Shown here: positions 557 through 13,793 of the stretch, one piece after another | Layout: every line of letters begins with the position of its first letter | Position numbering within the stretch: position 1 is the stretch's first letter | Made by a program: the position numbers and the translations under genes | Notes under the pieces: generated by a model | Database searches by the model: none | What the model saw: only the letters and a program-made list of their open reading frames with translations | Told to the model about the DNA's origin: nothing | Source of the DNA: a virus | Strand: one strand, 5' to 3' | IMG/VR virus record: IMGVR_UViG_3300008050_000083 | Span: 1-46,168 of that record | DNA: 46,168 nt

Positions 557-807
557 GCAAACAATACGAAGCAGTAAATGATTTTCTGATGTATCTATGG
601 AACACAACCGGAGATGAGTTTTTGTTTGCTCTTTTTGGTCAGAAGTATGATGAAATGGAACCACACCGTAAAGAGTATGTTCAGAAGTATCTTGATGCTA
701 AACGCGAGAACCCAGCGAGCATTTGGTCTATGTTGGATAGAGATAACCAACAGAAGTTATTAGATGCTGCCAATGAACGATACAATAGGGGAGATGAGGA
801 AGAATGA
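553..807 (+). CDS. Hypothetical acidic helical protein
   Basis: An 84-residue protein (MSKQYEAVNDFLMYLW...) with an acidic end (NRGDEEE). I chose ATG 553 over the GTG at 541 because it forms the ATGA overlap with the previous gene and follows a purine-rich AAGGTGGTGGG stretch. The stop overlaps the clamp-loader start at 804 in the same way, so the two are probably co-translated. The sequence looks alpha-helical and has no signal peptide or membrane segment. A role as small partner of the clamp loader is possible from position only. Confidence 0.6.
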   Translation: MSKQYEAVNDFLMYLWNTTGDEFLFALFGQKYDEMEPHRKEYVQKYLDAKRENPASIWSMLDRDNQQKLLDAANERYNRGDEEE

Positions 808-1709
808 AGCAGCTTTGGGTTGAAAAATACAGACCGAAGATCCTTGAGGATATGTGCGGTCAAGACCATATCACACCTGAAATGGTAGCCATCGTTGAAT
901 CAGATGGTGCATCCATGCAGAACTTTCTTTTCTATTCCCCTGAACCAGGAACGGGTAAGACTTCTCTAGCATACGCTTTAGCTGCCGAGCTAGATTATCA
1001 AGTGCATAAGTTTAACGCCTCATCCAAACGGACAAGAGGAATAGATTTCGTGGAGGAAGATGTTGCTCCACTATCCCGAACAGGTATCAAAGAAACAATC
1101 ATGTTCTTAGATGAAGCTGACCGTCTTACAACTCAAGCTCAAGACGCACTAAAGGGTGTTATTGAGGATGCGACAGCATACTTCATTCTAACCTGTAACG
1201 ACTTAAGCCGTATATCCCCCTGGCTGCAATCCCGTTGTCAGCTTAGGACATTCAAGCCAATAGATGATGAGTCATTACTCAAGAGGTTGGCGTGGATTTC
1301 AGCTAATGAAGGTTTGGAAATAACTGAGGGTGATCTACAGCGTATTTGTTCCAGGCATACTGGGGATTTACGGAATGCTATTAATGCTCTTCAAAGCTTT
1401 TCCTGCTTACCCGAAGAACAAAAACAACAATTCCTCTTAACTCTAGACAGACCATTTATTGATAGTAATAAGGTGTTGCGTCTGTGCTTCAAGGAGCGTT
1501 GTATAGATTTAGCTGTGGCAGAATTGACGGGTGATCCTCGTCAAGCGATTAGGGCTGTTTTTGACCACGCCATCGCGACAGGAGCTAAAGACGAATCTAA
1601 GCTGCGTGTAATAGATGCAGCTATCACCAGCGAGCGTGACATTATTAATGGTGTCGAGCCATCAATGGTTCTTCATAACTTCTGTCGTATGTTAATAGAG
1701 GGTGTTTGA
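804..1709 (+). CDS. Clamp-loader ATPase, RFC small-subunit / T4 gp44-like
   Basis: A 301-residue AAA+ ATPase that would open the sliding clamp and load it on primed DNA. It opens with WVEKYRP, as RFC small subunits do. The Walker A motif is PEPGTGKTS (residues 46-54), Walker B is FLDEAD (101-106), sensor 1 is LTCND (129-133), and the arginine-finger SRC motif is at 143-145. The P-loop has Pro-Glu where most RFC proteins have Gly-Pro. The C-terminal half is a helical collar-like region. No separate large subunit is visible here, so the loader may be a homo-oligomer, use an unrecognised partner, or borrow a host subunit. The clamp it would serve is at 7003-7815. Confidence 0.9.
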   Translation: MKQLWVEKYRPKILEDMCGQDHITPEMVAIVESDGASMQNFLFYSPEPGTGKTSLAYALAAELDYQVHKFNASSKRTRGIDFVEEDVAPLSRTGIKETIMFLDEADRLTTQAQDALKGVIEDATAYFILTCNDLSRISPWLQSRCQLRTFKPIDDESLLKRLAWISANEGLEITEGDLQRICSRHTGDLRNAINALQSFSCLPEEQKQQFLLTLDRPFIDSNKVLRLCFKERCIDLAVAELTGDPRQAIRAVFDHAIATGAKDESKLRVIDAAITSERDIINGVEPSMVLHNFCRMLIEGV

Positions 1710-1965: not shown

Positions 1966-3174
1966 ATGACCGGAATAGAAAAAGTAGCAGAACAAATCGG
2001 AGTAGGAACAGATATCCTTTCCGTTAGATTGGAACGGGTATTGAATGAACAAGGTGCAGCGTGGGCAGCTTCAGGTAAGAATGAAGATGACAGCAAAACA
2101 ATGGCACTTCGCGTAGCAGCGCGTCAAATAGTTAGTGAGCGTGCGAAGATTGCACGAAGCGGTTGTACCAGTTATGAAGGTATGTTAGTCAAAGTACCTC
2201 CTTACAAAGATTGGGGGCGTAACAGCTACCAAAGCATGAAAAAGACTTTGAGTTCTCTTGATGAAGAAGGGCGCGAAAGCCTAGTATCTCAAGGTTCTGT
2301 GGTTATTTTTGAGGACAACCATGACGGCACTTATACGCGCTACTTCAATCCTTCTCTTTTGGCGAAGCAAGCATTTGAAGTGGGTTCTGAAACTGACGAA
2401 GTATCAGAACAACCGAACCGGATCTTTGAGCTAGACGAAAACACCAGCTTTTATGTTGTTTGGGATAAGGCTAACCCCACATTCCCATCAGGAGATAGCA
2501 ATTTCAAATACGGCGCACCACGCCCTCTTCAGGAATTAGACAGACAATGTTTATTCTTAGGTCGCGAAGCCGGAACGACAGGTGATTTGGATATTTTTAC
2601 TGTTCGTTTGTCGGGTGAAATCGCTAAGAACCAGTATGAAGCTTTTAGACCTGGCACTATTGCCGTCAAACCAGGCCGAAACAACAACCTATATTCAAAG
2701 GCGGGAGTTACTGACTTCCAACCGGATGATTCATTGGCGAGTATTTTCAGCGGTCCTCCTTTGGCAATTGGTGATGAAGGGCCTGAGGGGATCATTCCTA
2801 GCGTTGTAACCGAGTTTTTACATGGGCTACATTCTTTACCTGATTACTACCAATCGCACCGCGAGGACAGCGATTGGTGGGGTCAATGGGTTGGTTTTAT
2901 TGGTGAGGTTATTCATATTGACCCAAGAGAGAAGGGTGGTTACACCCTGTCCGTTGGTGATTTGGATATTACTTCGACAGCACCTTCAATTGACATTGTG
3001 GTTCCCGCAGGGGTTTCACTTGACTTCGCCGTTGGCTCACAAATCGTAGTGGTTGGTGCGCCCTGGCAGACCAAAGAGGGTGACACACGGTTCTCTAACT
3101 ATGGTTGGTGGGTATTGGATGCAATTTCACCTGTTGCTTCTGCAAATAATTCAGACGAAGGATGGGATGAATGA
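1966..3174 (+). CDS. Probable ssDNA-binding (RPA/SSB-like) protein
   Basis: A 402-residue protein. It has an N-terminal helical part, a middle region with many beta-prone segments, and a C-terminal beta-rich section (WGQWVGFIGEVIHI, SQIVVVGAPW) resembling an OB-fold. It ends in the acidic tail SDEGWDE, a feature typical of single-strand-binding proteins that recruit partners. It directly precedes and overlaps a Sak4-like RecA-fold ATPase, a common pairing in tailed viruses. The identification rests on context, tail and predicted strand content, not on a clear motif. The alternative is a structural recombination mediator. Confidence 0.5.
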   Translation: MTGIEKVAEQIGVGTDILSVRLERVLNEQGAAWAASGKNEDDSKTMALRVAARQIVSERAKIARSGCTSYEGMLVKVPPYKDWGRNSYQSMKKTLSSLDEEGRESLVSQGSVVIFEDNHDGTYTRYFNPSLLAKQAFEVGSETDEVSEQPNRIFELDENTSFYVVWDKANPTFPSGDSNFKYGAPRPLQELDRQCLFLGREAGTTGDLDIFTVRLSGEIAKNQYEAFRPGTIAVKPGRNNNLYSKAGVTDFQPDDSLASIFSGPPLAIGDEGPEGIIPSVVTEFLHGLHSLPDYYQSHREDSDWWGQWVGFIGEVIHIDPREKGGYTLSVGDLDITSTAPSIDIVVPAGVSLDFAVGSQIVVVGAPWQTKEGDTRFSNYGWWVLDAISPVASANNSDEGWDE

Positions 3175-4122: not shown

Positions 4123-4335
4123 ATGGTTTGGATTTCTGAACCTGGTTTTGTTATTCTAGAACCACACACCAGAACAATGAGTGGCATCAAGTTAGCAAAC
4201 ACTAGAGTATCTCGGCGTCATAACGACAATAAGTTAGTGGCCTGGATTGGGGAAATCCTGATCGAGCTAGAAGGCGGTCAATTCGTAGTAGCTGAAGAGC
4301 AAATAGTGGCGGTGTATTTTAATGACAAGAGTTAA
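4123..4335 (+). CDS. Minimal GroES-like co-chaperonin (candidate)
   Basis: A 70-residue protein directly upstream of a GroEL-type gene and overlapping it by 14 bases. PGFVILEPHTRTMSGIKL (residues 7-24) lines up with the GroES opening strand followed by the mobile loop, where the usual SGIVL-type hydrophobic tripeptide contacts GroEL. The end GQFVVAEEQIVAVY (52-65) resembles the final GroES strands that usually read eeYLivrEdDILAVv. GroES is about 95 residues, so the central barrel or roof region would be shortened. I start at ATG 4123 just after the upstream stop; an in-frame ATG at 4078 would run into that gene. The match is by eye. Confidence 0.5.
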   Translation: MVWISEPGFVILEPHTRTMSGIKLANTRVSRRHNDNKLVAWIGEILIELEGGQFVVAEEQIVAVYFNDKS

Positions 4336-5899
4336 AAGAGGAAAAGATGCTAGGTCAGCTTTGTTAAAGGGTATTGATGCAGTAGCTGATACCGTCAAAA
4401 TAACGCTCGGTCCCGCCGCACGAACAGTTATCTATCGTTCCCCGAAGGGAGCACCAATTGTTATTGATGATGGAGTTTCCATCGTAAATCAGATTCATTT
4501 AGAGGATCCATTCCAGGATTTAGGAGCTTCATTGATGAGGCAAATTGCCGGTGAAGCTCAAAAAGCTTCGGGAGATGGAACAACGACAGCGTGTGTTATA
4601 GCGCAGGCTATGGCTCACGAAGCAAATACCCAAATTATATCTCAAGACCTAACCCCAATTCAGTTAAAGAGGGAAATAGATACAATAATAGAGTCAGTAG
4701 TGGCTTACATTTTAGATGAAGCAGAACCCGCTGTCATGGGTCAATTGAGGAATGTAGCCACCATATCAGCTAATGGAGATGAACCTCTAGGTGATGTTAT
4801 ATCAGAAGCCTTTTCTAATGTGGGTGATGGAGGTATTGTTGTTGTTGAAGAATCCCTCGATCCAGGACCTACTCTTGAAATGATAGAGGGTATGGAAGTA
4901 ATGACGGGTGCAGCATCCCCCCACTTATTGAACGGGGCTAAGGAGCAACGATTTGATAATGCTCTAGTGCTTTGCACAGACGAAACAATATCACAATTCC
5001 AAGAGCTAATCCCTGCCCTAGAAGTAGCGCAGAAGGAGAAGCGACCTTTAGTGGTTTATTGTGCTGCTATAAAACCTATGGCTCTTCAGAACCTATGTTT
5101 GAATGTTGTGCAGGGTAATATCAATTGTTGTGTGTGTGAGCTACCAGGTTATGCTCAAGACCAAACGGATATATGTTTTGATATATCAGAAAGAACTGGA
5201 GCATACACATTTATTCAAAATCTGGGTGATAGAATTGCTGACTTGAAAATCGAGGGTGATGAAACACCACTCGGAACAGCTAGTATTACTATAACAAATA
5301 CTCAATCAATAATTATCAGCGAACATGAACCGTCTGAAGATTGGATGGAACGATTAGAGTTAGAAATGAAAAATGCAGACCATCCCTGGTCTGCGGAGAA
5401 AATCGCTAATAGAATTGCTCGTATCAAGGGGCAGATTGCTGTAATCAAGGTGGGTGCTACAACCCAAGCAGAACTCTATGAAAAGAAAGCTCGTATTGAC
5501 GATGCTATCAATGCCACCAGGGCTGCCCTTAAGGGCGGTGTGATCCCTGGTGGAGGTATGATGTTAGTAAAGGGTGCATGGGAATACTGTTTATCAGACC
5601 CTGACGCAACGGGTAGTTTGACACCTGCGAAATCAGTAGTCTTTGAAGGTCTTACTGCCCCTCTTAATCAAATCGTAAAGAATAGTGGTCGGACAGAAGA
5701 GTGGGCTGCTATAATTGCTGGTGGTATGGTGGAGAAGAATGAAGGTTGGGATGCCAAAGAAAATGAGATATCTGATCCTATGGCCGGTGGTATCATTGAC
5801 CCTGCTTTGGTGGTGATTAATTCGCTTAAAGCAGCAGCTTCAATCGTGGGTCTTTTACTAACTACCGAAGCTGTCGTAGTAGGTGTTGATAATGAATAA
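4322..5899 (+). CDS. groEL-like: GroEL-type (group I) chaperonin
   Basis: A 525-residue HSP60 chaperonin that would fold viral proteins in an ATP-driven ring. Hallmarks are KITLGPAARTV (26-36), DDGVSIV (49-55), GDGTTTA (84-90), and in the last third IAVIKVGATT with KKARIDDAINATRAAL and GGVIPGGG. It resembles bacterial GroEL (group I) and not the archaeal thermosome (group II), whose signatures differ. The ATPase aspartates (in DDGVS, GDGTT and RIDDA) are present. The C-terminal Gly-Gly-Met tail is absent; the protein ends VVVGVDNE. The apical region is diverged and Cys-rich (NINCCVCELPG), which may tune it to a particular client. Confidence 0.92.
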   Translation: MTRVKRGKDARSALLKGIDAVADTVKITLGPAARTVIYRSPKGAPIVIDDGVSIVNQIHLEDPFQDLGASLMRQIAGEAQKASGDGTTTACVIAQAMAHEANTQIISQDLTPIQLKREIDTIIESVVAYILDEAEPAVMGQLRNVATISANGDEPLGDVISEAFSNVGDGGIVVVEESLDPGPTLEMIEGMEVMTGAASPHLLNGAKEQRFDNALVLCTDETISQFQELIPALEVAQKEKRPLVVYCAAIKPMALQNLCLNVVQGNINCCVCELPGYAQDQTDICFDISERTGAYTFIQNLGDRIADLKIEGDETPLGTASITITNTQSIIISEHEPSEDWMERLELEMKNADHPWSAEKIANRIARIKGQIAVIKVGATTQAELYEKKARIDDAINATRAALKGGVIPGGGMMLVKGAWEYCLSDPDATGSLTPAKSVVFEGLTAPLNQIVKNSGRTEEWAAIIAGGMVEKNEGWDAKENEISDPMAGGIIDPALVVINSLKAAASIVGLLLTTEAVVVGVDNE

Positions 5900-6293
5900 C
5901 ATAGGGGGCGATTGTAAGCCCTTTATGCCCGTATGGGGGGTAAGTGACCCCGAAGTGAAAAGGGTCGCAGGAAAGGCCGTTCTAGACCCCTTAAACGCCG
6001 CGTGGGTTTATTGGTGCAAACGCCCTTTCAAGACCATGTGCAGGTTCAACGGTGATGAATTAACATTAACCATTACTCTTTTTTGTGACGACATATCAAT
6101 AATAGTGAGTGACGAACACCATATTGATATATGTTACTGCGAAGAACTAATACAGCAATTCGCTAGAGATAGCAGACAACACGGAACAACGGTTGAAGAG
6201 TTTGCTCTAGGTTTGAAAGATTTGTGGTCCCATCTCAGTATAGAAGTAACAGGTATAGCTCCTAGTCATGGCCCTTTTAGGGTGAGAGTGTGA
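5892..6293 (+). CDS. QueF-like tunnelling-fold protein (candidate)
   Basis: A 133-residue protein. I start at ATG 5892, which overlaps the chaperonin stop, and not at 5883. By eye two segments match QueF (preQ0 reductase) or the amidino-transferring QueF-like proteins. FKTMCRFNGDELTL (46-59, Cys50) fits the strand carrying the thioimide-forming Cys. RQHGTTVEEFALGLKDL (95-111) fits the RxHGxxxE block whose Glu holds the base. A final EVTG...HGPFRVRV fits the closing strands. The next gene is DpdA-like, whose relatives put 7-deazaguanine into DNA, so a linked role is coherent. Sequence identity is low and the call is tentative. Confidence 0.4.
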   Translation: MNNIGGDCKPFMPVWGVSDPEVKRVAGKAVLDPLNAAWVYWCKRPFKTMCRFNGDELTLTITLFCDDISIIVSDEHHIDICYCEELIQQFARDSRQHGTTVEEFALGLKDLWSHLSIEVTGIAPSHGPFRVRV

Positions 6294-6964
6294 AAGTCTT
6301 TTTATCAATGGTTCCCAGCAAGCTCCTAAAGTGGTTGGAATATACTCCTGATGGTTATTTGGTTACACCTCACAATGTCGGTTGGGCCAAAGGCTCAAAA
6401 GGTCCTGCAACAAGAACACCTGACGATATTCCGATGATCGTTGATAACGGAGCTTACAGGAACAGAAACGAAGATGAGTTGCTGGATCCAGCCAAGAACA
6501 TTAGCGATATGAAATCAGCTATATCTGCCGTAGCGAATCCCGTTCACTTCGTAGTGCTGACAGACCGCTTCGGGGATTGGGAAAATAGTATTAAGTTATC
6601 TCGTCAAGCTGTGGAGCTTTGGGGTGATGAGTACCCAAAAGCTTTAGTCCTCCAGGATGGATTCACACCAGAAGATGTTGAGCCTTTCTTGAATGTTATT
6701 GAATATCTCTTCATTGGAGGGTCTGATTGGGATTTCAAAGTGAAGGCTATTGAGTATGCACTCACTACTGATTTGAAAATCCATGTGGCTAGAGTTTCCC
6801 GCCGTTATCAGATTCTTTGGTGTCTGCGTAAGAAAGTGGACTCAATAGATAACAGCACCTGGGCGAACAATCTAAATCTGTGGAGGAGGTCGGGTCGTGA
6901 TGTTATCAAGCAAAATATAGAGTTAATACAAAATTGGAGTGAAAAAGAGCCGGAATGGCTATAA
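6290..6964 (+). CDS. DpdA-like / TGT-superfamily protein, DNA base exchange (candidate)
   Basis: A 224-residue protein. Segments in order: MIVDNGAYRNR (49-59), HFVVLTDRFGDWENS (86-100), ALVLQDGF (118-125), LFIGGSDWDFK (140-150), HVARVSRRYQILW (165-177) and DSIDNSTW (184-191). This order of a D-N/S-G motif, an aspartate strand, a QDG strand, a GGS loop and a DS(I/V)D end is that of the small TGT-like DpdA proteins of viruses, which exchange guanine for a 7-deazaguanine in DNA. It overlaps the QueF-like gene by four bases. It ends Glu-Trp-Leu, shared with four other proteins here. The host could supply preQ0. Confidence 0.55.
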   Translation: MKVFLSMVPSKLLKWLEYTPDGYLVTPHNVGWAKGSKGPATRTPDDIPMIVDNGAYRNRNEDELLDPAKNISDMKSAISAVANPVHFVVLTDRFGDWENSIKLSRQAVELWGDEYPKALVLQDGFTPEDVEPFLNVIEYLFIGGSDWDFKVKAIEYALTTDLKIHVARVSRRYQILWCLRKKVDSIDNSTWANNLNLWRRSGRDVIKQNIELIQNWSEKEPEWL

Positions 6965-6972
6965 TGCAAGCC

Positions 6973-6990
6973 TTTATATTATACCGCTTT
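6973..6990 (+). promoter_or_regulatory. Leaderless archaeal promoter for the sliding clamp
   Basis: TTTATATTATA followed by CCGCTTT, with GCAAG before it as a possible BRE. The TATA core starts at 6975, 28 bases before ATG 7003, so transcription would begin at or next to the start codon. It is almost identical to the promoter at 13778. Confidence 0.7.
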
Positions 6991-7002
6991 CAAGGTGAAA
7001 AT

Positions 7003-7815
7003 ATGACAATAGAAACACGGAACGATGCCCTTAAACGATTATTAGAACTGACTCAACGAAAGCAAAGTGTGTCGGGCAAATTACAAGAACAGGTTATTGC
7101 TTGTGTTCTTCGCTCTGATGGTAGCAACATAACCACTACTTCGCTAGTGCGAGATGGAAAGACTAGCCTAGCACAATTCAAAGCAGCGGCAGAGGGTGAA
7201 AGCACATTCATACCAATTCCTGATATTGAGCGTCTTTTGGGTGTATTGAATGCACACGGAACAAACCTCAAATTGAGCATGGAAAATAGTAAGATCCGAG
7301 TCAAGTCCGGCGGGAAGCAAACCTCATTGATAGCGGATTTGAACGGGTTAGCATTTCCTCATTCTTCTGAAACAATTGGTGAATGGGAAGATAAGTCTGT
7401 TGAGCTATCCTCTTCGCTTAGTCGTGACGGATATATGATGAAGTCGGGTGATTTGAGGGAACCATTCTTTACTGTGACCCTTGAAGCTGTGGCCCTGTTT
7501 GAAGCTTTACGATGTGATTCTATCAACAATCAAAAATTGAACCGATACACCTTCAATCTAACTGATGGTGAGTTCAAAGTATTTGTTGGTGATGAATTAA
7601 AGGGAGCTACTAGCATTCTTCTGCATACAGACCTTGAAGGTGATGATTGGGAATGGACTTTTGAAGGAGGTTTAGAACATATATTCAAACCGTATTCGGG
7701 TGACTGTCACTTAGACTTCATAGATTTCAGGGCTGAAGGTCAAGGTATTAGAGTCTTTATCACACTACCTGATGGTAGCTGGGTCTTTCAAGCGGGTATA
7801 ATTCCGAGGGATTGA
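7003..7815 (+). CDS. Sliding clamp, PCNA-like
   Basis: A 270-residue DNA clamp, the usual size for PCNA or T4 gp45, that would encircle DNA and tether polymerase and modifying enzymes. I place the start at ATG 7003, because upstream in-frame starts lie inside or before the TATA box. The tail matches the PCNA end: strands CHLDFIDFRAEGQGIRVFI, then GSWVFQAGIIPRD, comparable to the LAPR-type C-terminus. The N-terminal half has alternating strands such as TFIPIPDIERLLGVL. It sits in the middle of genes whose products share a C-terminal EWL tail, which fits a role as common docking platform. Confidence 0.75.
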   Translation: MTIETRNDALKRLLELTQRKQSVSGKLQEQVIACVLRSDGSNITTTSLVRDGKTSLAQFKAAAEGESTFIPIPDIERLLGVLNAHGTNLKLSMENSKIRVKSGGKQTSLIADLNGLAFPHSSETIGEWEDKSVELSSSLSRDGYMMKSGDLREPFFTVTLEAVALFEALRCDSINNQKLNRYTFNLTDGEFKVFVGDELKGATSILLHTDLEGDDWEWTFEGGLEHIFKPYSGDCHLDFIDFRAEGQGIRVFITLPDGSWVFQAGIIPRD

Positions 7816-7817
7816 TA

Positions 7818-8777
7818 GTGAATGTCCTGGCTTTATGTGCCGGAATCGGTGGGCTTGAACTCGGAATCAAACTTGCTTGTCCTCGATCCACTACCGTTTG
7901 TTATGTGGAGGGGGAGGCCTTTTCTGCTACCACACTTATCTCGCAAATGGAAGGAGATGTCTTGGATGAAGCTCCTATCTGGTCTAATGTTAAAACCTTC
8001 GATGGCTCAAAGTGGTGTGGAAAAGTGGATTGCATCTCTGGAGGCTACCCCTGCCAACCATTTTCAGTTGCAGGAAAGCGAGAAGGTGAAGGCGACCCGC
8101 GACACCTATGGCCTGACTTCAAACGGATCATCGGAGAAGTCAGACCCCGAATCGTGTTCTTTGAAAATGTACCAGGACACCTCACACTTGGGTTCTCCTC
8201 CGTGTTACGCGACTTACGAGGACTTGGTTATTCAGTTGAAGCAGGATTATTTTCAGCGGCAGAAGTCGGAGCACAACACCTCCGAAAAAGGCTCTTTATC
8301 ATGGGCTACACCGAACACGCTGGATTTCATGCCTCAACGAAGCGAAGAGGGAATGAAGAGGTTAATGGAAGGGCATCGGAAAGGCCGAGCCAGGCCAAGC
8401 AATCTTCGGGAACAGATAACCCCTCAATGGTGGCCGACCCCGATAGCGAGCGCATCGCGGGGTGTAACGAATCCCAAATCTCAATCAATCAAAAAGGGAG
8501 CAAAGGCTTCCCGCTTGAACTCAACGGTGCTTGCCACCCAATCTGGCCTCCTAGACCAAACGAAACAGAAGCCTGGAACTTCGCAATCAACAGATTCTCC
8601 GACCTTAGACCGGCTATACCTGAATCCCAGCTTCGTGGAATGGTTAATGGGAATGCCCTCAGGGTGGATCAGCTTAGAGCCCTCGGAAACGCAGTCGTTC
8701 CGTTGGTTGGAGCTTATGCGTGGTTCGTTTTATCATCTCGTATCGGAATACGAATATCAGCAAAGGGAGGAATATGA
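7818..8777 (+). CDS. C5-cytosine DNA methyltransferase
   Basis: About 319 residues from GTG 7818, which is preceded by GAGGG; TTG 7812 would add two residues. It transfers a methyl group from SAM to cytosine C5. The motif order is complete: I LCAGIGGLELG, IV GGYPCQPFSVAG with the catalytic Cys, VI FFENVPGH, VIII QHLRKRLFIMGY, then a variable target region and motif X DQLRALGNAVVP. The whole gene overlaps a second open frame (7822-8787) that also shows conserved sequence, so its codons are doubly constrained. It is the only modification-type gene in this run without an EWL end (it ends SAKGGI). The target sequence cannot be deduced. Confidence 0.93.
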   Translation: MNVLALCAGIGGLELGIKLACPRSTTVCYVEGEAFSATTLISQMEGDVLDEAPIWSNVKTFDGSKWCGKVDCISGGYPCQPFSVAGKREGEGDPRHLWPDFKRIIGEVRPRIVFFENVPGHLTLGFSSVLRDLRGLGYSVEAGLFSAAEVGAQHLRKRLFIMGYTEHAGFHASTKRRGNEEVNGRASERPSQAKQSSGTDNPSMVADPDSERIAGCNESQISINQKGSKGFPLELNGACHPIWPPRPNETEAWNFAINRFSDLRPAIPESQLRGMVNGNALRVDQLRALGNAVVPLVGAYAWFVLSSRIGIRISAKGGI

Positions 8778-8787
8778 ATGGTTGTAA
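7822..8787 (+). CDS. Overlapping-frame protein with methyltransferase-associated motifs
   Basis: A 321-residue frame, +1 relative to the C5-methyltransferase and open along its whole length. It is not random. It contains SLSWATPNTLDFM and WWPTPIAS, and then LYLNPSFVEWLMGMPSGW near residues 270-287. These are the WxTP and NPxxVExLMGxPxGW signatures common in virus proteins annotated as DNA-methyltransferase-related. It ends YEWL, the tail shared with four neighbours, and its last codons overlap the next gene's start at 8778. The first possible start is ATG 7822, four bases after the methyltransferase GTG. A partner or target-recognition subunit is plausible. Function is unproven. Confidence 0.65.
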   Translation: MSWLYVPESVGLNSESNLLVLDPLPFVMWRGRPFLLPHLSRKWKEMSWMKLLSGLMLKPSMAQSGVEKWIASLEATPANHFQLQESEKVKATRDTYGLTSNGSSEKSDPESCSLKMYQDTSHLGSPPCYATYEDLVIQLKQDYFQRQKSEHNTSEKGSLSWATPNTLDFMPQRSEEGMKRLMEGHRKGRARPSNLREQITPQWWPTPIASASRGVTNPKSQSIKKGAKASRLNSTVLATQSGLLDQTKQKPGTSQSTDSPTLDRLYLNPSFVEWLMGMPSGWISLEPSETQSFRWLELMRGSFYHLVSEYEYQQREEYEWL

Positions 8788-9932
8788 AGGATATTGTTTT
8801 AACCTGTCAAGTGAAGCATGATGAATACACTAAGATAGCTGAAAAGATGTTTGATATTCCTCTAGAGGAACGATCAAAGACAGTTATTAAGAATCTAATC
8901 CGACCTCCTGATGATTACAGTATAGGTTGCATACATGGTCCATCTGGCTGTGGTAAGACAACACTACTCAATACCTTCGGTAAGCCATACGAGCATAAAT
9001 GGGATGGTTCTCGTTCTATCATCAGCGATATAGGGCATTCATTCAATTTAGAACCAGAAGATGCTGCCGGTGTTCTTTCTGCTGTCGGTCTATCATCCGT
9101 TCCTTCATGGGTCAGACCTCATCACCACTTATCAAACGGTGAACAATTCAGGGCAGACCTGGCTGCAGCTATAGCTCATTCAAGAACGAGCGAAGAACCT
9201 ATCCTTATTGATGAGTTTACTTCAGTTGTTGATAGGAATGTTGCGAAAGCAGCAAGCTTTGCTCTTCAAAAGTATATTAGAAAATCAGGTGGAAGGGTTA
9301 TCGTATCATCCTGCCATGTTGATATTCTAGAGTGGTTGAATCCAGATTGGACTTACAACCCTCTAGATGCAAAAACCATCGTGAACGAGACCAGGGGGTG
9401 GTCGGTTCATAGACCATCAATTGAACTCAAAATATACCGAGCGCACTATGAAGCGTGGGACCTATTCAAAGAGCATCACTATCTGACGGAGGGTTTGAAT
9501 CGTGTTGCCAAAATCTTTATTGCCTCATGGAACGGAGTCCCTGTGGCCTGTTCATGCACACTACCATTCCCAAACGGAGGAATACCTAATGGTTGGCGAG
9601 CTAGCAGAACGGTGGTGTTACCAGACTATCAAGGGCTTGGCATCGGAGTCAAGCTGTCAGACTTTATCGCTTCAATGGTCGTGCGCGGAGGTGGTCGTTA
9701 TTTCAGCCGCCATTCCCATATCGCATTTGCGGCTCACAGAATCAACAATCCCAATTGGAAAGAAACAGCAGTATCTAGGAAAGTGCATACCCATCCTGGA
9801 AATGAGGATTATGGATGGAAAGCAAACCTTAGAGATTGCTGGTCGTTTGAATATATTGGGGAGCCAGCTAGCTGGGAAGATGCAGAGTTATTTTGGTCGT
9901 GGAAGGTGAGCACAAATGCAGAGTGGTTATGA
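8778..9932 (+). CDS. ABC-type ATPase fused to Mom-like GNAT domain
   Basis: A 384-residue two-domain protein. Residues 1-195 are a soluble ABC ATPase: Walker A GPSGCGKTT (54-62), signature LSNGEQ, Walker B ILIDEF and switch histidine SSCHVD, with no membrane part. Residues 205-384 form a GNAT-like domain: FKEHHYL (near 230-236), then TVVLPDYQGLGIG, the acetyl-CoA-type loop. The His-Tyr pair and context resemble phage Mu Mom, which adds a methylcarbamoyl group to adenine N6. The ATPase may scan or remodel DNA for the modifying domain. It ends AEWL. The start overlaps the methyltransferase stop. An ordinary acetyltransferase is the alternative. Confidence 0.7.
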   Translation: MVVKDIVLTCQVKHDEYTKIAEKMFDIPLEERSKTVIKNLIRPPDDYSIGCIHGPSGCGKTTLLNTFGKPYEHKWDGSRSIISDIGHSFNLEPEDAAGVLSAVGLSSVPSWVRPHHHLSNGEQFRADLAAAIAHSRTSEEPILIDEFTSVVDRNVAKAASFALQKYIRKSGGRVIVSSCHVDILEWLNPDWTYNPLDAKTIVNETRGWSVHRPSIELKIYRAHYEAWDLFKEHHYLTEGLNRVAKIFIASWNGVPVACSCTLPFPNGGIPNGWRASRTVVLPDYQGLGIGVKLSDFIASMVVRGGGRYFSRHSHIAFAAHRINNPNWKETAVSRKVHTHPGNEDYGWKANLRDCWSFEYIGEPASWEDAELFWSWKVSTNAEWL

Positions 9933-11100
9933 GATAATACAAGGTAACGCCCTTGATGAGCTTAGAAAGCTTCCTGCAGGACACGCTTATACCTGCGTCA
10001 CTTCGCCTCCTTATTGGGCTTTGAGGGATTATGGGATCGAACCCTCAATTTGGGAAACCTCAATATCGGACCCCAATTGTGAGCATGAATGGGAAATGTT
10101 TGAAGTCAAATCAGGACAACGAGGCGGAACAAACAATCCTTTGTTCGGAGCTTTCAATGGTGATACTCATATATCATCTGTCAATTATGGATTTTGCCCC
10201 TGCGGGGCATGGTTGGGAACGCTCGGTCTTGAACCGACTCTTGAGCTATTCATTGAACATATATGTCAGATTTTTGATGAAGTGTGGCGAGTCTTGAAGG
10301 ATGATGGCACACTATGGCTCAATCTCGGTGATTGCTACAATGGATCAGGTGGTGCTGGAGGCGATTACAGTAAAGGTGGTATTCGTGAAGGGCAACCGAA
10401 ATACCCAGGTCGACTCAACCCCGACTTAGCACCCAAGAATCTTTTAGGAGTTCCCTGGCGCATAGCACTTGCTCTCCAAGAACGAGGATGGATTCTCCGT
10501 TCAGATATTATTTGGCATAAACCAAACCCTATGCCTGCTGGTGTGACCGACAGACCAATTATGGCTCACGAATACATATTCCTATTCGCCAAGCAACAGA
10601 AGTATTATTATGATGCTGACTCGATCCGAGTCAAGGCCAAGCACCCTGTCATTGGTAAGCAACCGCCAAAGAAAACCGAATCAAAGGAGGAAGTTACTCT
10701 TGATGGTATGTCTATGACTAGGGCAGGTGAAATCACTATGGGCGCGGGTTCAAGACCGCGTGGTTTGAACGATTACATAAGCACACATGGCCGCCATTCA
10801 CACCCGAAGGGGCGACACCCCCATAGCGTGTGGAAAGTGGCTACAAAGCCCTACAAAGGGGCGCATTTCGCTACATTTCCCCCCGACCTAATCACCCCAT
10901 GCGTTAAGGCCGGTTGCCCCGAAGGAGGGATAGTGCTTGACCCATTTTCAGGAACAGCTACAACGGGTCAAGTAGCCCTAGAGAACGGGAGGAACTATTG
11001 TGGTATTGAAATAGGAGATGATTATATTAAAATGGCAGAAGATCGTCTATCTCAAGTGGATAAAAAGTTAGGTTTGACGGATAAAACTGAATGGTTATAG
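9916..11100 (+). CDS. N4-cytosine/N6-adenine DNA methyltransferase, beta class
   Basis: A 394-residue SAM-dependent amino-methyltransferase. The catalytic motif TSPPYW (29-34) comes first and the SAM-binding DPFSGTATTG (near 342-351) last, the beta-class order. SPPY favours N4-cytosine but does not exclude N6-adenine. Between them are CEHEW and CPCGAW, a four-metal-ligand insert typical of virus-encoded members, and TLWLNLGDCYNG with PWRIALALQERGW. The first 17 bases overlap the upstream gene. It ends KTEWL. With the C5 enzyme and the Mom-like and DpdA-like genes it forms a DNA-modification block, probably protection against host restriction. Confidence 0.92.
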   Translation: MQSGYEIIQGNALDELRKLPAGHAYTCVTSPPYWALRDYGIEPSIWETSISDPNCEHEWEMFEVKSGQRGGTNNPLFGAFNGDTHISSVNYGFCPCGAWLGTLGLEPTLELFIEHICQIFDEVWRVLKDDGTLWLNLGDCYNGSGGAGGDYSKGGIREGQPKYPGRLNPDLAPKNLLGVPWRIALALQERGWILRSDIIWHKPNPMPAGVTDRPIMAHEYIFLFAKQQKYYYDADSIRVKAKHPVIGKQPPKKTESKEEVTLDGMSMTRAGEITMGAGSRPRGLNDYISTHGRHSHPKGRHPHSVWKVATKPYKGAHFATFPPDLITPCVKAGCPEGGIVLDPFSGTATTGQVALENGRNYCGIEIGDDYIKMAEDRLSQVDKKLGLTDKTEWL

Positions 11101-11107
11101 CGAAGAG

Positions 11108-11122
11108 TTTATATTGGAACGA
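11108..11122 (+). promoter_or_regulatory. Archaeal promoter for the HTH gene
   Basis: CGAAGAG (possible BRE, 11101-11107), then TTTATATT (11108-11115) and AACGATT. The TATA core starts 31 bases before ATG 11141. A GGAG just upstream of the ATG leaves both leaderless and short-leader initiation possible. Confidence 0.6.
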
Positions 11123-11140
11123 TTTTTAGGAGATTTAGAT

Positions 11141-11443
11141 ATGGCAATTATCAGCCGCCCCGATACGAAAGAAGAATATGAGATACCCCTGCGATTAGAT
11201 GGTTTAGGAAAGCATCGCGTTGAGGCAGAAGTAGGTGGATTGAGGGTTATTTTAGATATAGATTATCAGCTAGCTGATAAGTTAGGGTTGTATCGAGAGA
11301 AAGAATGGCTCGTTGAAAACTATGTTGTTAAAGGGCTAACTATGGCTGAACTAGCTCGCACCTGCGGAGTCAGCCCAATGACGATTCATTTATGGTTAAA
11401 GAAACATGAGATACCTTCCAGGCCTAGAGGAAGGCGAGGATAG
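11141..11443 (+). CDS. Helix-turn-helix DNA-binding protein
   Basis: A 100-residue protein from ATG 11141, chosen because a longer in-frame start at 11114 lies within the promoter. The C-terminal half reads LTMAELARTCGVSPMTIHLW, a clear helix-turn-helix, followed by a basic RPRGRRG tail. The N-terminal half is a small strand-rich domain of unknown function. It has its own promoter between the methyltransferase and polymerase genes and is a good candidate for an early transcription regulator. A DNA-binding helper of replication is the alternative. Confidence 0.75.
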   Translation: MAIISRPDTKEEYEIPLRLDGLGKHRVEAEVGGLRVILDIDYQLADKLGLYREKEWLVENYVVKGLTMAELARTCGVSPMTIHLWLKKHEIPSRPRGRRG

Positions 11444-11448
11444 AATCC

Positions 11449-11466
11449 TTCATAAGCAACCGCTTC
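11449..11466 (+). promoter_or_regulatory. Leaderless archaeal promoter for DNA polymerase
   Basis: AGAATCC (11442-11448), then TTCATAAG and CAACCGCTTC. The weak TATA equivalent starts at 11451, 28 bases before ATG 11479, the same spacing as at the clamp, 13808 and 17191 genes. The conserved CCGCTT is kept although the TATA sequence is poor. Confidence 0.55.
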
Positions 11467-11478
11467 ATTGATTTAATT

Positions 11479-13770
11479 ATGATAGTGGAACGGTTGCGCG
11501 GTAAAAATATCCTCATCCGATATAGAGATGAATATCGTAACCGCCAAGAAATGAGGATTGGAGATATTCACCCTTATTGCTTCGTCAAGGATTCTGACGC
11601 ACAGTTTATAGAATGCTATTACAGACAACCAGGGTATAAGGGCATCTATGGTGAATCCCTCACTAAGGTTGTGTTCGGTGATCCAGCAGATGTTGGTAAG
11701 CTGAAGAAAGATTATCAGACATGGGAAGCAAATATACCATTCGTAAATAGAGTCCTGGTTGATAAGGATTTGATGATACCCAATTATGAGCATCGTGTTT
11801 GGTATTTAGATATGGAGTGGAAAACAATTTCAGGTGAAATTACTGTCATTACAGTACACGATACTTTCAGCGAGAAGGATTATACTTGGATTTTAAGTCC
11901 TGATAAAAAGACTTTTTCAGACGCTAGAACTATAATGAAGGCCGAGCATGAACGGGGGGGCAAAACTTTATCTGATGATTGGAAGCAGCATCGGAAATTA
12001 TACAGTATGCCATGTGAGAATCACCCAGACGGTTTAGGTGAAATACACTTCAAAACTCCAGCTTTATTATTTAATGATGAAAAGACCATGTTGGAGCACT
12101 TTTTGAGCGTTCTCAAAAAGCAAGATCCTGATGTTATTACTGGTTGGGCTGTCGTGTGGGCTGATATTCAACAATTGGCTAAACGCCTCAAACACAATAG
12201 GTTATCCCCCAATAGCCTGTCACCTTTAGGCAGACATAGATACGATTATGGAGATTGGGACCAACCTATTCCTGGTCGCCTGTGTATTGACCTGATGGAT
12301 GCTTGGTCTAGGTTGTGGCAGCTAAAGAACGGTAAATTACCAAATCAGAAGTTAGATACGGCTGCAAGAGAAGCTTTAGGTGAAAGAAAGAATCCCCTAC
12401 CTGACGGTCACGATACCTATTATTCAGACCTCGGCACTTATGTTGATTACAACAGACAAGATGTGCGTTTGCTCTCCAAATTAAACTCGATAAATAATGC
12501 CATAGAACACTACCTGGCTGTTCAACACCTAGTCGGTTGTGACTTCAGGGCTACGCCTTTCATAACCAAATTATTTACTGTTTTGGCTCTTAGGGATAAA
12601 GAGTTCAAATTGCGTATTCCTTCAAAACCTCAATTTGAAAAGGAAGATTATCAAGGTGCTGATATAATGGAGCCGGTGCCTGGGATCTATGAAAATATAG
12701 GTATCTTTGATGTGAGGGCTATGTATCATTCAAATATCAGTAAGTATGGTATCTCATGGGAAACCATTGATGAAAACGGACAGGATATTGGGAACGGGCT
12801 GTGCTTTGATACCTCAAAGAAAGGTCTGCTTGAAAGGCAGATGGATTACATGACTGAATTGAGGGATGAATACAAATCTAAAATGAAGTCTGCTACTACG
12901 GATATAGAACGGAGAATGTATGACTCTCTCCAATATGCTACAAAGAGCTTAGTCGCTTCAATGTATGGAACAGCGGGTGACAGTAGGTATGGGTTGTATC
13001 ATCCCGCCGTAGCTGCTGCTATAACATACACCAGCCGAAACACTTTGGGTAAATTAAAGGATGCTTGCGAGAAGCGGAGCTATGCTGTGGTCTATGGGCA
13101 TACCGATTCAGTATTTGTTAGGGTTCCTTCTGTTTCAGACGGAAAAGAATTGCTAGAAGAATTGAATGAGTTACTTTATCCGATAGTCACCGAGTTTGAA
13201 AAGTGGGCGTCATACGCTCTTATTCACCGAAAGAATCGCTATGCCTGTAATATCCAATGGCCTGAAGAACAAATCTATATCAAGGGTATAGAGATGAAGC
13301 AATCCAGAATGCCTCAAATAACTAAGTGGTCTATGGGTCATGTTATATCCATGATATTGAAGGGTCAGCCCGATATGTTAGTCAGACAATCCCTATTGAA
13401 TGTTATTGAGGATATTCGGGATGGTGTGTATTCTCCGATAGAGGATCTTTTTATTAGAGGTAAATTGGATAGGGATTTGGATAAATACAAGGTGTTATCT
13501 GAAGCCAGGGCAGCAGCATCTTGGGCTAATAAGTGGCTCGGTAAAGGGTATGGTGAAGGCTCAAGCTTTTGGGTGACTCTTGATAGTGAGGGTAAGTATA
13601 TTGCTTTTGATGATCCATCTGAAATAGAGGATATAGCTGAAATAGGGTATAAACACATAGGGCAGCGTTTCCTCTTGGATAAAATAAAACCATATTATCA
13701 TTTAGCAAAATATGATTTCCAGGTATTATTGAATGAGTGGGAAGGTAAAAGCAGCATGGAATGGTTGTAG
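11479..13770 (+). CDS. polB: DNA polymerase, family B
   Basis: A 763-residue replicative polymerase with a proofreading exonuclease domain. Exo I is YLDMEW (near 110), Exo II is GWAVVWADI and Exo III is YNRQDVRLL. Polymerase motif A is FDVRAMYHS (near 408-416), motif B is KSLVASMYG and motif C is YGHTDS (near 538-543). Several canonical positions are altered: motif A usually reads DxxSLYPS, motif B KxxxNSxYG, motif C YGDTDS. The key carboxylates in motif A and the last Asp of motif C remain. The length resembles virus polymerases, shorter than T4 gp43. It ends MEWL, possibly a clamp-binding tail. It starts leaderless at ATG 11479. Confidence 0.95.
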   Translation: MIVERLRGKNILIRYRDEYRNRQEMRIGDIHPYCFVKDSDAQFIECYYRQPGYKGIYGESLTKVVFGDPADVGKLKKDYQTWEANIPFVNRVLVDKDLMIPNYEHRVWYLDMEWKTISGEITVITVHDTFSEKDYTWILSPDKKTFSDARTIMKAEHERGGKTLSDDWKQHRKLYSMPCENHPDGLGEIHFKTPALLFNDEKTMLEHFLSVLKKQDPDVITGWAVVWADIQQLAKRLKHNRLSPNSLSPLGRHRYDYGDWDQPIPGRLCIDLMDAWSRLWQLKNGKLPNQKLDTAAREALGERKNPLPDGHDTYYSDLGTYVDYNRQDVRLLSKLNSINNAIEHYLAVQHLVGCDFRATPFITKLFTVLALRDKEFKLRIPSKPQFEKEDYQGADIMEPVPGIYENIGIFDVRAMYHSNISKYGISWETIDENGQDIGNGLCFDTSKKGLLERQMDYMTELRDEYKSKMKSATTDIERRMYDSLQYATKSLVASMYGTAGDSRYGLYHPAVAAAITYTSRNTLGKLKDACEKRSYAVVYGHTDSVFVRVPSVSDGKELLEELNELLYPIVTEFEKWASYALIHRKNRYACNIQWPEEQIYIKGIEMKQSRMPQITKWSMGHVISMILKGQPDMLVRQSLLNVIEDIRDGVYSPIEDLFIRGKLDRDLDKYKVLSEARAAASWANKWLGKGYGEGSSFWVTLDSEGKYIAFDDPSEIEDIAEIGYKHIGQRFLLDKIKPYYHLAKYDFQVLLNEWEGKSSMEWL

Positions 13771-13777
13771 CGAATCC

Positions 13778-13793
13778 TTTATATTATACCGAC
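13778..13793 (+). promoter_or_regulatory. Leaderless archaeal promoter
   Basis: CGAATCC (possible BRE, 13771-13777), then TTTATATTATA and CCGAC. The TATA core begins at 13780, 28 bases before ATG 13808. It nearly duplicates the clamp promoter at 6973. It should start transcription of the operon 13808-17167. Confidence 0.7.

Follow-up and report, generated by a model that had tools for sequence, protein, structure and literature searches.

In bacteriophage T4, gp43 and gp55 bind the sliding clamp gp45 through short tails (gp43 ends in SLDFLFG, and gp55 carries SLDFLYE near its end), and the clients recruited by such tails are the polymerase and late-transcription factors. Here we describe, in a virus record of 46,168 bases (IMG/VR record IMGVR_UViG_3300008050_000083, the whole of which was analysed and is called the window below), a C-terminal tail of Trp followed by Leu, Ile or Val (the W tail) that is likewise common to a DNA polymerase and other proteins. 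It differs from the T4 tails in sequence, and its carriers are mostly DNA-modifying enzymes. The reading that explains it best, and in our judgement quite probably the right one, is that the tail docks on a sliding clamp.

Comparable peptides are described for other clamps. The bacterial beta-clamp consensus is QL[S/D]LF or QxxLF, and PolC carries the motif as its last five residues (excerpt of PMC12309361); these peptides have other residues than the W tail and belong to another clamp class, yet they stand in the place of the tail in many homologues of one of our tailed proteins, an ABC-type ATPase fused to a GNAT, Mom-like domain (ABC-Mom), in some homologues of DpdA, and in a few homologues of a frame overlapping a C5 cytosine methyltransferase gene. 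The archaeal PCNA-interacting protein (PIP) motifs listed in the excerpt of PMC6881253 lie at the very C-terminus. Like the W tail, archaeal PCNA partners carry a short aromatic and hydrophobic peptide at the C-terminal end of the polymerase and other proteins, and the clamp of the window has a predicted PCNA fold; unlike it, archaeal PIP boxes have the form Q-x-x-h-x-x-a-a, whereas the W tail is fixed only at Trp and the last Leu, Ile or Val, and its clamp binding is putative. In this reading the W tail belongs to a familiar class of clamp peptides, as a variant outside the PIP consensus.

DNA-modifying enzymes held by a sliding clamp also have precedents, in T4 alpha-glucosyltransferase, which was pulled down with gp45 (excerpt of PMC13216743), and in human DNMT1, which is named among PIP proteins (excerpt of PMC6881253), although these are single enzymes that share no tail. 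The exchange of clamp motifs among homologues has been described for IS1634 transposases, whose C-terminal motif is of beta type in bacteria and of PCNA type in archaea (excerpt of PMC4549789); they differ from the present case in having canonical motifs and in not modifying DNA. In the open-access literature we found no paper linking DpdA or Mom to clamp binding; two papers in which both DpdA and a sliding clamp occur are, judged by title, a review and a phage genome report, and six others concern different topics, judged by title and the opening of the abstract.

A sequence-only reading of the window had reported that the proteins ending at 6964, 8787, 9932, 11100 and 13770 all close exactly in Glu-Trp-Leu (EWL), and both these ends and the codons it quoted are borne out (Table 1). 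EWL precedes exactly 5 of the 5237 stop codons in six frames of the window, and these belong to the five open reading frames (ORFs) in question. From the interior frequency of EWL (6 in 14,594 tripeptides), 0.02 EWL C-termini would be predicted for 49 genes, and the binomial probability of at least five among 50 C-termini is 2e-11 for the window alone. The same reading had called the protein of gene 6290-6964 DpdA-like, a label that finds no support: it matches no Pfam family (E up to 0.01, PF23859 included), NCBIfam model or PADLOC entry, and phrog_15826 is its only assignment. Genuine DpdA proteins with a W tail do occur in related viruses (PF23859, E from 1e-74 to 4e-80 in three members scanned).

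Related loci were collected from viral contigs by scans for the family B DNA polymerase (PolB), the clamp, ABC-Mom, DpdA, the N4/N6 methyltransferase and the C5 methyltransferase with its overlapping frame, with the best 80 loci kept for each. PolB relatives have 43-61% identity among the matches listed, and none was found in genome contigs. A single-sequence clamp search of viral contigs returned no close relatives, and the clamp family was reached via PolB; clamp relatives then served for a further viral-contig scan that is blind to tails. A first set comprises 85 loci and the window, with 1461 known C-termini, and the joint set, from the PolB and clamp scans together, comprises 158 related viral loci and the window, with 2110 distinct genes. 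Open 3-prime ends were left out of all counts, as were duplicates, judged by the last 50 residues in the family tally and by the last 40 in the tallies of replacement peptides.

In the first set, 114 of the 1461 C-termini are WL, 40 are WI and 39 are WV, against 2.3, 0.7 and 1.7 expected from protein interiors. In the joint set, 95 of 98 distinct PolB C-termini, window included, end in W-[LIVFM], and the exceptions are one VGFI end, in which Trp is replaced by Phe, and two pieces of an interrupted gene. The loss of the tail from relatives that keep the clamp, which the sequence-only reading had named as counter-evidence, is therefore not what these viruses display. The Trp of the window's PolB (W762) is invariant in 9 of 9 aligned sequences and is preceded by a variable linker. 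In locus L058, the PolB gene is split into two ORFs, both without the tail. The same kind of end is found in 48 of 49 N4/N6 methyltransferases, 11 of 11 MTase-28 proteins, 8 of 10 C5 methyltransferases, all DpdA (6/6), ABC-Mom (6/6) and fam67 (4/4) proteins, both members of each of two DCM-like families, 61 of 64 members of a family of 222 amino acids (the other three being one residue longer) and 5 of 6 members of a family of 90 amino acids. It is absent from the clamp (0/100), Sak4-like (0/97), g402 (0/80), RfcS clamp-loader (0/77), helix-turn-helix (0/76), primase (0/70) and chaperonin (0/29) families. Among the 53 families with at least five members, the tail is on half or more of the proteins in eight, on a smaller part in three and on none in the others. 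The tail is thus close to all-or-none by family. Its carriers belong to separate clusters of homologues; of the clusters with at least two members, 12 are at least half tailed.

The enrichment persists among genes found by the tail-blind clamp scan alone, of which 107 of 925 end in W-[LIV], against 4.0 expected. Tailed genes there include all of PolB (33/33), the 222-residue family (32/32), N4/N6 methyltransferases (8/8), MTase-28 (9/9), DpdA (5/5) and ABC-Mom (3/3), together with 4 of 5 C5 methyltransferases and none of the 41 clamps. The tail is real, is a feature of the peptide and is present across the lineage.

The alignment of ends also redefines the motif. Among 244 tailed proteins of nine families, the last residue is Leu in 168, Val in 38, Ile in 35, Phe in 2 and Met in 1; position -3 is Glu in 44% and position -4 is Val, Leu, Ile or Met in 60%. 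The only fixed positions are Trp at -2 and Leu, Ile or Val at -1 (241 of 244), so that EWL, put forward by the sequence-only reading as the minimal motif, gives way to W-[LIV]-COOH, with acidic and hydrophobic neighbours preferred and not fixed; [V/I/L]-[E/D/Q]-W-L is a common fuller form. The accompanying proposal that selection acts on the peptide and not on the DNA holds up, because EWL is encoded among relatives by 11 codon combinations, with three stop codons.

Tailed families with a recognised domain are mostly DNA polymerases or DNA-modifying enzymes, namely those with PF00145, PF01555, DpdA (PF23859) or ABC-GNAT domains. There is in addition one tailed XF1762 protein, which also matches Mom below the cut-off, and one tailed SspD-like sulphur enzyme. 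The 222-residue family (L003:2012-2695 and 63 relatives) has no Pfam, NCBIfam, PHROG or PADLOC match in the members scanned, and the 90-residue family has no domain match in its scanned members; judged by its ends, the former is likely a clamp client of a kind not yet annotated.

We then consider what stands at the same end of homologues that lack the W tail, using a beta-clamp-type pattern, Q.{2,3}[LIM][FW] in the last 20 residues, that was chosen after some of the tails had been seen. This pattern is present in 33 of 70 distinct C-termini of ABC-Mom relatives that lack the W tail, against 0.17 expected, and the peptide is often the very end of the protein (e.g. AQNQISLF); for DpdA relatives the count is 16 of 67, against 0.58 expected (e.g. 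RQLDLFAA, RQLGLFPT). With the stricter Q..[LIM]F, which is near the published QxxLF, the counts are 33 of 70 against 0.06 expected and 11 of 67 against 0.29 expected. None of the seven W-tailed members of the two sets (one Mom, six DpdA) has the beta-clamp pattern. Judged from named relatives, the ABC-Mom and DpdA proteins without the W tail are probably mostly from bacterial phages.

Named phages provide further cases. T4-like comparisons cover two phages. In the T4-like Aeromonas phage AsFcp_2, Mom ends in SGLDFMFGI and the polymerase in SLTDLFGDW. In phage vB_VmeM-32, Mom ends in KDILDI and the polymerase gene looks split; a piece ending in NAVLDI probably represents the end of the polymerase, assigned solely by its resemblance to AsFcp_2. 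Prochlorococcus phage P-RSM4, with a methylase ending in ALTDLMECDS and a polymerase ending in SLEFLFS, is an ambiguous case. The ABC-Mom protein of Nonlabens phage P12024S ends in QNQISLF. Because homologues have peptides of beta-clamp or T4 type in its position, the W tail most likely docks on the viral clamp.

The proposed docking partner is the product of gene 7003-7815, which is, by its predicted fold, a sliding clamp of PCNA type. The gene has no Pfam match and no sequence match in the PDB, a clamp profile included. Its AlphaFold model has a predicted local distance difference test score (pLDDT) of 90 and a predicted template modelling score (pTM) of 0.87. The best Foldseek matches of this model are bacterial beta clamps; a second structure aligner places Archaeoglobus fulgidus PCNA first (Z 19.4, root-mean-square deviation 3.2, 219 aligned) with T4 gp45 at Z 18.4, and its matches include 1b77, a clamp with a polymerase peptide. 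The interdomain loop is conserved, with A117 in 96 of 97 and F or Y118 in 97 of 97 sequences. A start at 7003 appears more likely than the opening of the ORF at 6955, because alignments with relatives begin no earlier than residue 15 of the longer ORF (position 7003 corresponds to its residue 17) and a TATA-like box lies at 6973-6980.

In the mechanism that we propose, W-[L/I/V]-COOH would be a short flexible docking peptide that binds the virus's own PCNA-like clamp; its clients would be the viral DNA polymerase, N4/N6 and C5 methyltransferases, DpdA, Mom-like transferases and one SspD-like sulphur enzyme, and the docked enzymes would modify bases on newly synthesised DNA behind the fork. We infer from the evidence above both that this particular clamp is the partner and that docking links modification to replication. 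The tail has the traits of clamp-docking peptides, being an aromatic and aliphatic peptide at the extreme C-terminus that is flexible (pLDDT below 50 in one model) and shared by a polymerase and other DNA-acting proteins. Of the clamp-docking tail envisaged by the sequence-only reading, what stands is its occurrence on the polymerase and on modification enzymes from a number of unrelated families, with 0 of 100 clamps and 0 of 77 clamp loaders tailed, and the clamp-type peptides of homologues; in the one model of clamp and methyltransferase, the tail is disordered. We also lean, with less assurance than for docking itself, towards a broader view in which viral enzymes that modify DNA are, as a class, clients of the clamp with an exchangeable C-terminal peptide matched to the replicating clamp: QxxLF for beta, SLDFLFG-like for T4 gp45 and here a new W-[LIV]-COOH code, perhaps read via the free carboxylate, which would also mark the overlapping C5 frame as a real protein.

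Several observations weigh against docking on the clamp. As a group, the 244 tailed proteins depart from the PIP box Q-x-x-h-x-x-a-a, with Gln at -8 in 10% and position -5 not generally hydrophobic. A few nucleases carry the tail (PD-DEXK 4/73, ERCC4 3/66 in the joint set), and the tailed 222- and 90-residue families are of no known function. The beta pattern is missing from 37 of the 70 ABC-Mom and from 51 of the 67 DpdA relatives that lack the W tail, and N4/N6 relatives have it in 13 of 76 cases against 3.6 expected, a weak excess. In 12 named-phage homologues (six ABC-Mom, including one whose gene is split, two DpdA and four N4/N6), the W tail is absent (0/12), yet just one QxxLF-type end and one T4-type end take its place, and T4 Dam and T4 alpha-glucosyltransferase are without a gp43-like tail. 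An AlphaFold2 model of an in-frame clamp-methyltransferase read-through in L074 left the tail disordered (residues 648-653 at pLDDT below 50, the last three at a mean of 32, pTM 0.45, with much of both domains folded), although this was a weak test, with 21 alignment rows, a long artificial linker and no control. Finally, binding to gp45 was not mainly responsible for the larger share of alpha-glucosylation (excerpt of PMC13216743), which means that coupling may not set the amount of modification.

Another explanation is that the tail binds some other common hub, for instance g402, whose acidic end contains W, or else the clamp loader or a host protein. In the L074 model the tail is not located on the clamp, and g402 and RfcS are also widespread, with 80 and 77 distinct members in the loci; a hub other than the clamp would nevertheless fail to explain why homologues have beta-clamp- or T4-type peptides in the position of the tail, and the location at the very C-terminus is also that of the archaeal PIP motifs listed in the excerpt of PMC6881253. 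We regard such a hub as unlikely. A signal for stability or processing, either a degron or its opposite, would account for a tail that is strictly C-terminal and strongly fixed at just two positions, but the tail occurs on the polymerase and on families most of which modify DNA, and spares the clamp (0/100), Sak4-like proteins (0/97), primase (0/70) and the clamp loader (0/77), and such a signal leaves the clamp-type peptides of homologues unexplained; its probability is accordingly very low.

Two further explanations we consider negligible. Were the shared end a DNA element, such as a promoter or recombination site at gene borders, one might point to the TATA-like box TTTATATT, since each of its three copies in the window follows an EWL stop codon at a distance of 8-9 bases; such a box is missing from the other two ends, the codons differ synonymously within the window, and the 11 combinations and three stop codons of relatives led us to reject this explanation on codon diversity. 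Chance is rejected on the counts obtained in the window and in the tail-blind clamp scan, and descent of the five proteins from one ancestor is opposed by the separate homology clusters of the carriers, so that neither has more than a trivial probability.

Clamp docking, if true, would explain when and where viral genomes gain protective base modifications, namely at the fork by clamp-held enzymes. It would also supply a sequence rule for spotting modification enzymes and replisome partners not yet recognised in viruses without annotation, as with the 222- and 90-residue families, and a cheap test for which overlapping reading frames are expressed. The C5 methyltransferase gene is a case of the latter. 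Its frames at 7812-8777 and 7822-8787 encode 321 amino acids each and overlap nearly completely, and the second alone is tailed. Locus L087 repeats the arrangement (35% identity, E 1e-49), with a C5 frame at 10819-11976 ending in INRG and a second frame at 10847-11986 ending in VEWI. In the scan with the overlapping frame, PQLSLFA-type ends occur in 5 of 59 distinct C-termini without the W tail, against 0.96 expected, and in the C5-frame list beta-type ends number 0 of 60, against 0.79 expected; for L402, L408 and L417 the identical ORF is in both lists. This points to the overlapping frame as the source of a putative clamp client, or to a frameshift that would fuse it with the C5 enzyme.

Table 1. 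Tailed genes, EWL ends and neighbouring genes of the window.
Feature	Coordinates	Strand	Remarks
RfcS-like clamp-loader small-subunit-like AAA ATPase	804-1709	+	without tail; PF00004; RFC lid below cut-off
g402 protein	1966-3174		without Pfam or PHROG match
Virus-encoded chaperonin	4322-5899		PF00118, E 5.7e-41
Tailed protein, 224 amino acids	6290-6964	+	phrog_15826 (function unknown); without Pfam, NCBIfam or PADLOC match
EWL tail of gene 6290-6964	6953-6961	+	GAA TGG CTA; protein end PEWL
Sliding clamp, predicted PCNA fold, proposed docking partner	7003-7815	+	ORF opens at 6955; likely start 7003
C5 cytosine methyltransferase frame	7812-8777	+	without tail, ends in SAKGGI; PF00145, E 1.7e-31
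Overlapping frame on C5 gene, tailed	7822-8787	+	phrog_1008 'DNA methyltransferase', E 1e-23
EWL tail of overlapping frame 7822-8787	8776-8784	+	GAA TGG TTG; protein end YEWL
ABC-type ATPase fused to GNAT (Mom-like) domain, tailed	8778-9932	+	weak Pfam ABC and GNAT matches; phrog_11143 (function unknown), E 7e-106
EWL tail of ABC-Mom gene 8778-9932	9921-9929	+	GAG TGG TTA; protein end AEWL
N4/N6 DNA methyltransferase, tailed	9916-11100	+	PF01555, E 2.7e-44
EWL tail of N4/N6 methyltransferase 9916-11100	11089-11097	+	GAA TGG TTA; protein end TEWL
Family B DNA polymerase (PolB), tailed	11479-13770	+	PF00136, E 6.6e-34
EWL tail of PolB 11479-13770	13759-13767	+	GAA TGG TTG; protein end MEWL

The genes for terminase, portal and tape measure protein are located further away in the window. 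Within the neighbourhood of Table 1, g402 and its relatives often end in acidic W-containing peptides (WDA, GWD, WDE), which resemble the tails of single-strand-binding proteins. TATA-like boxes before likely starts, together with replication genes of archaeal type, suggest an archaeal host. The window has three copies of TTTATATT, at 6973-6980, 11108-11115 and 13778-13785, where 4.2 would be expected by chance; they stand 22-25 bases before the next likely starts, at 7003, 11141 and 13808, and may be archaeal-type promoters that border transcription units.

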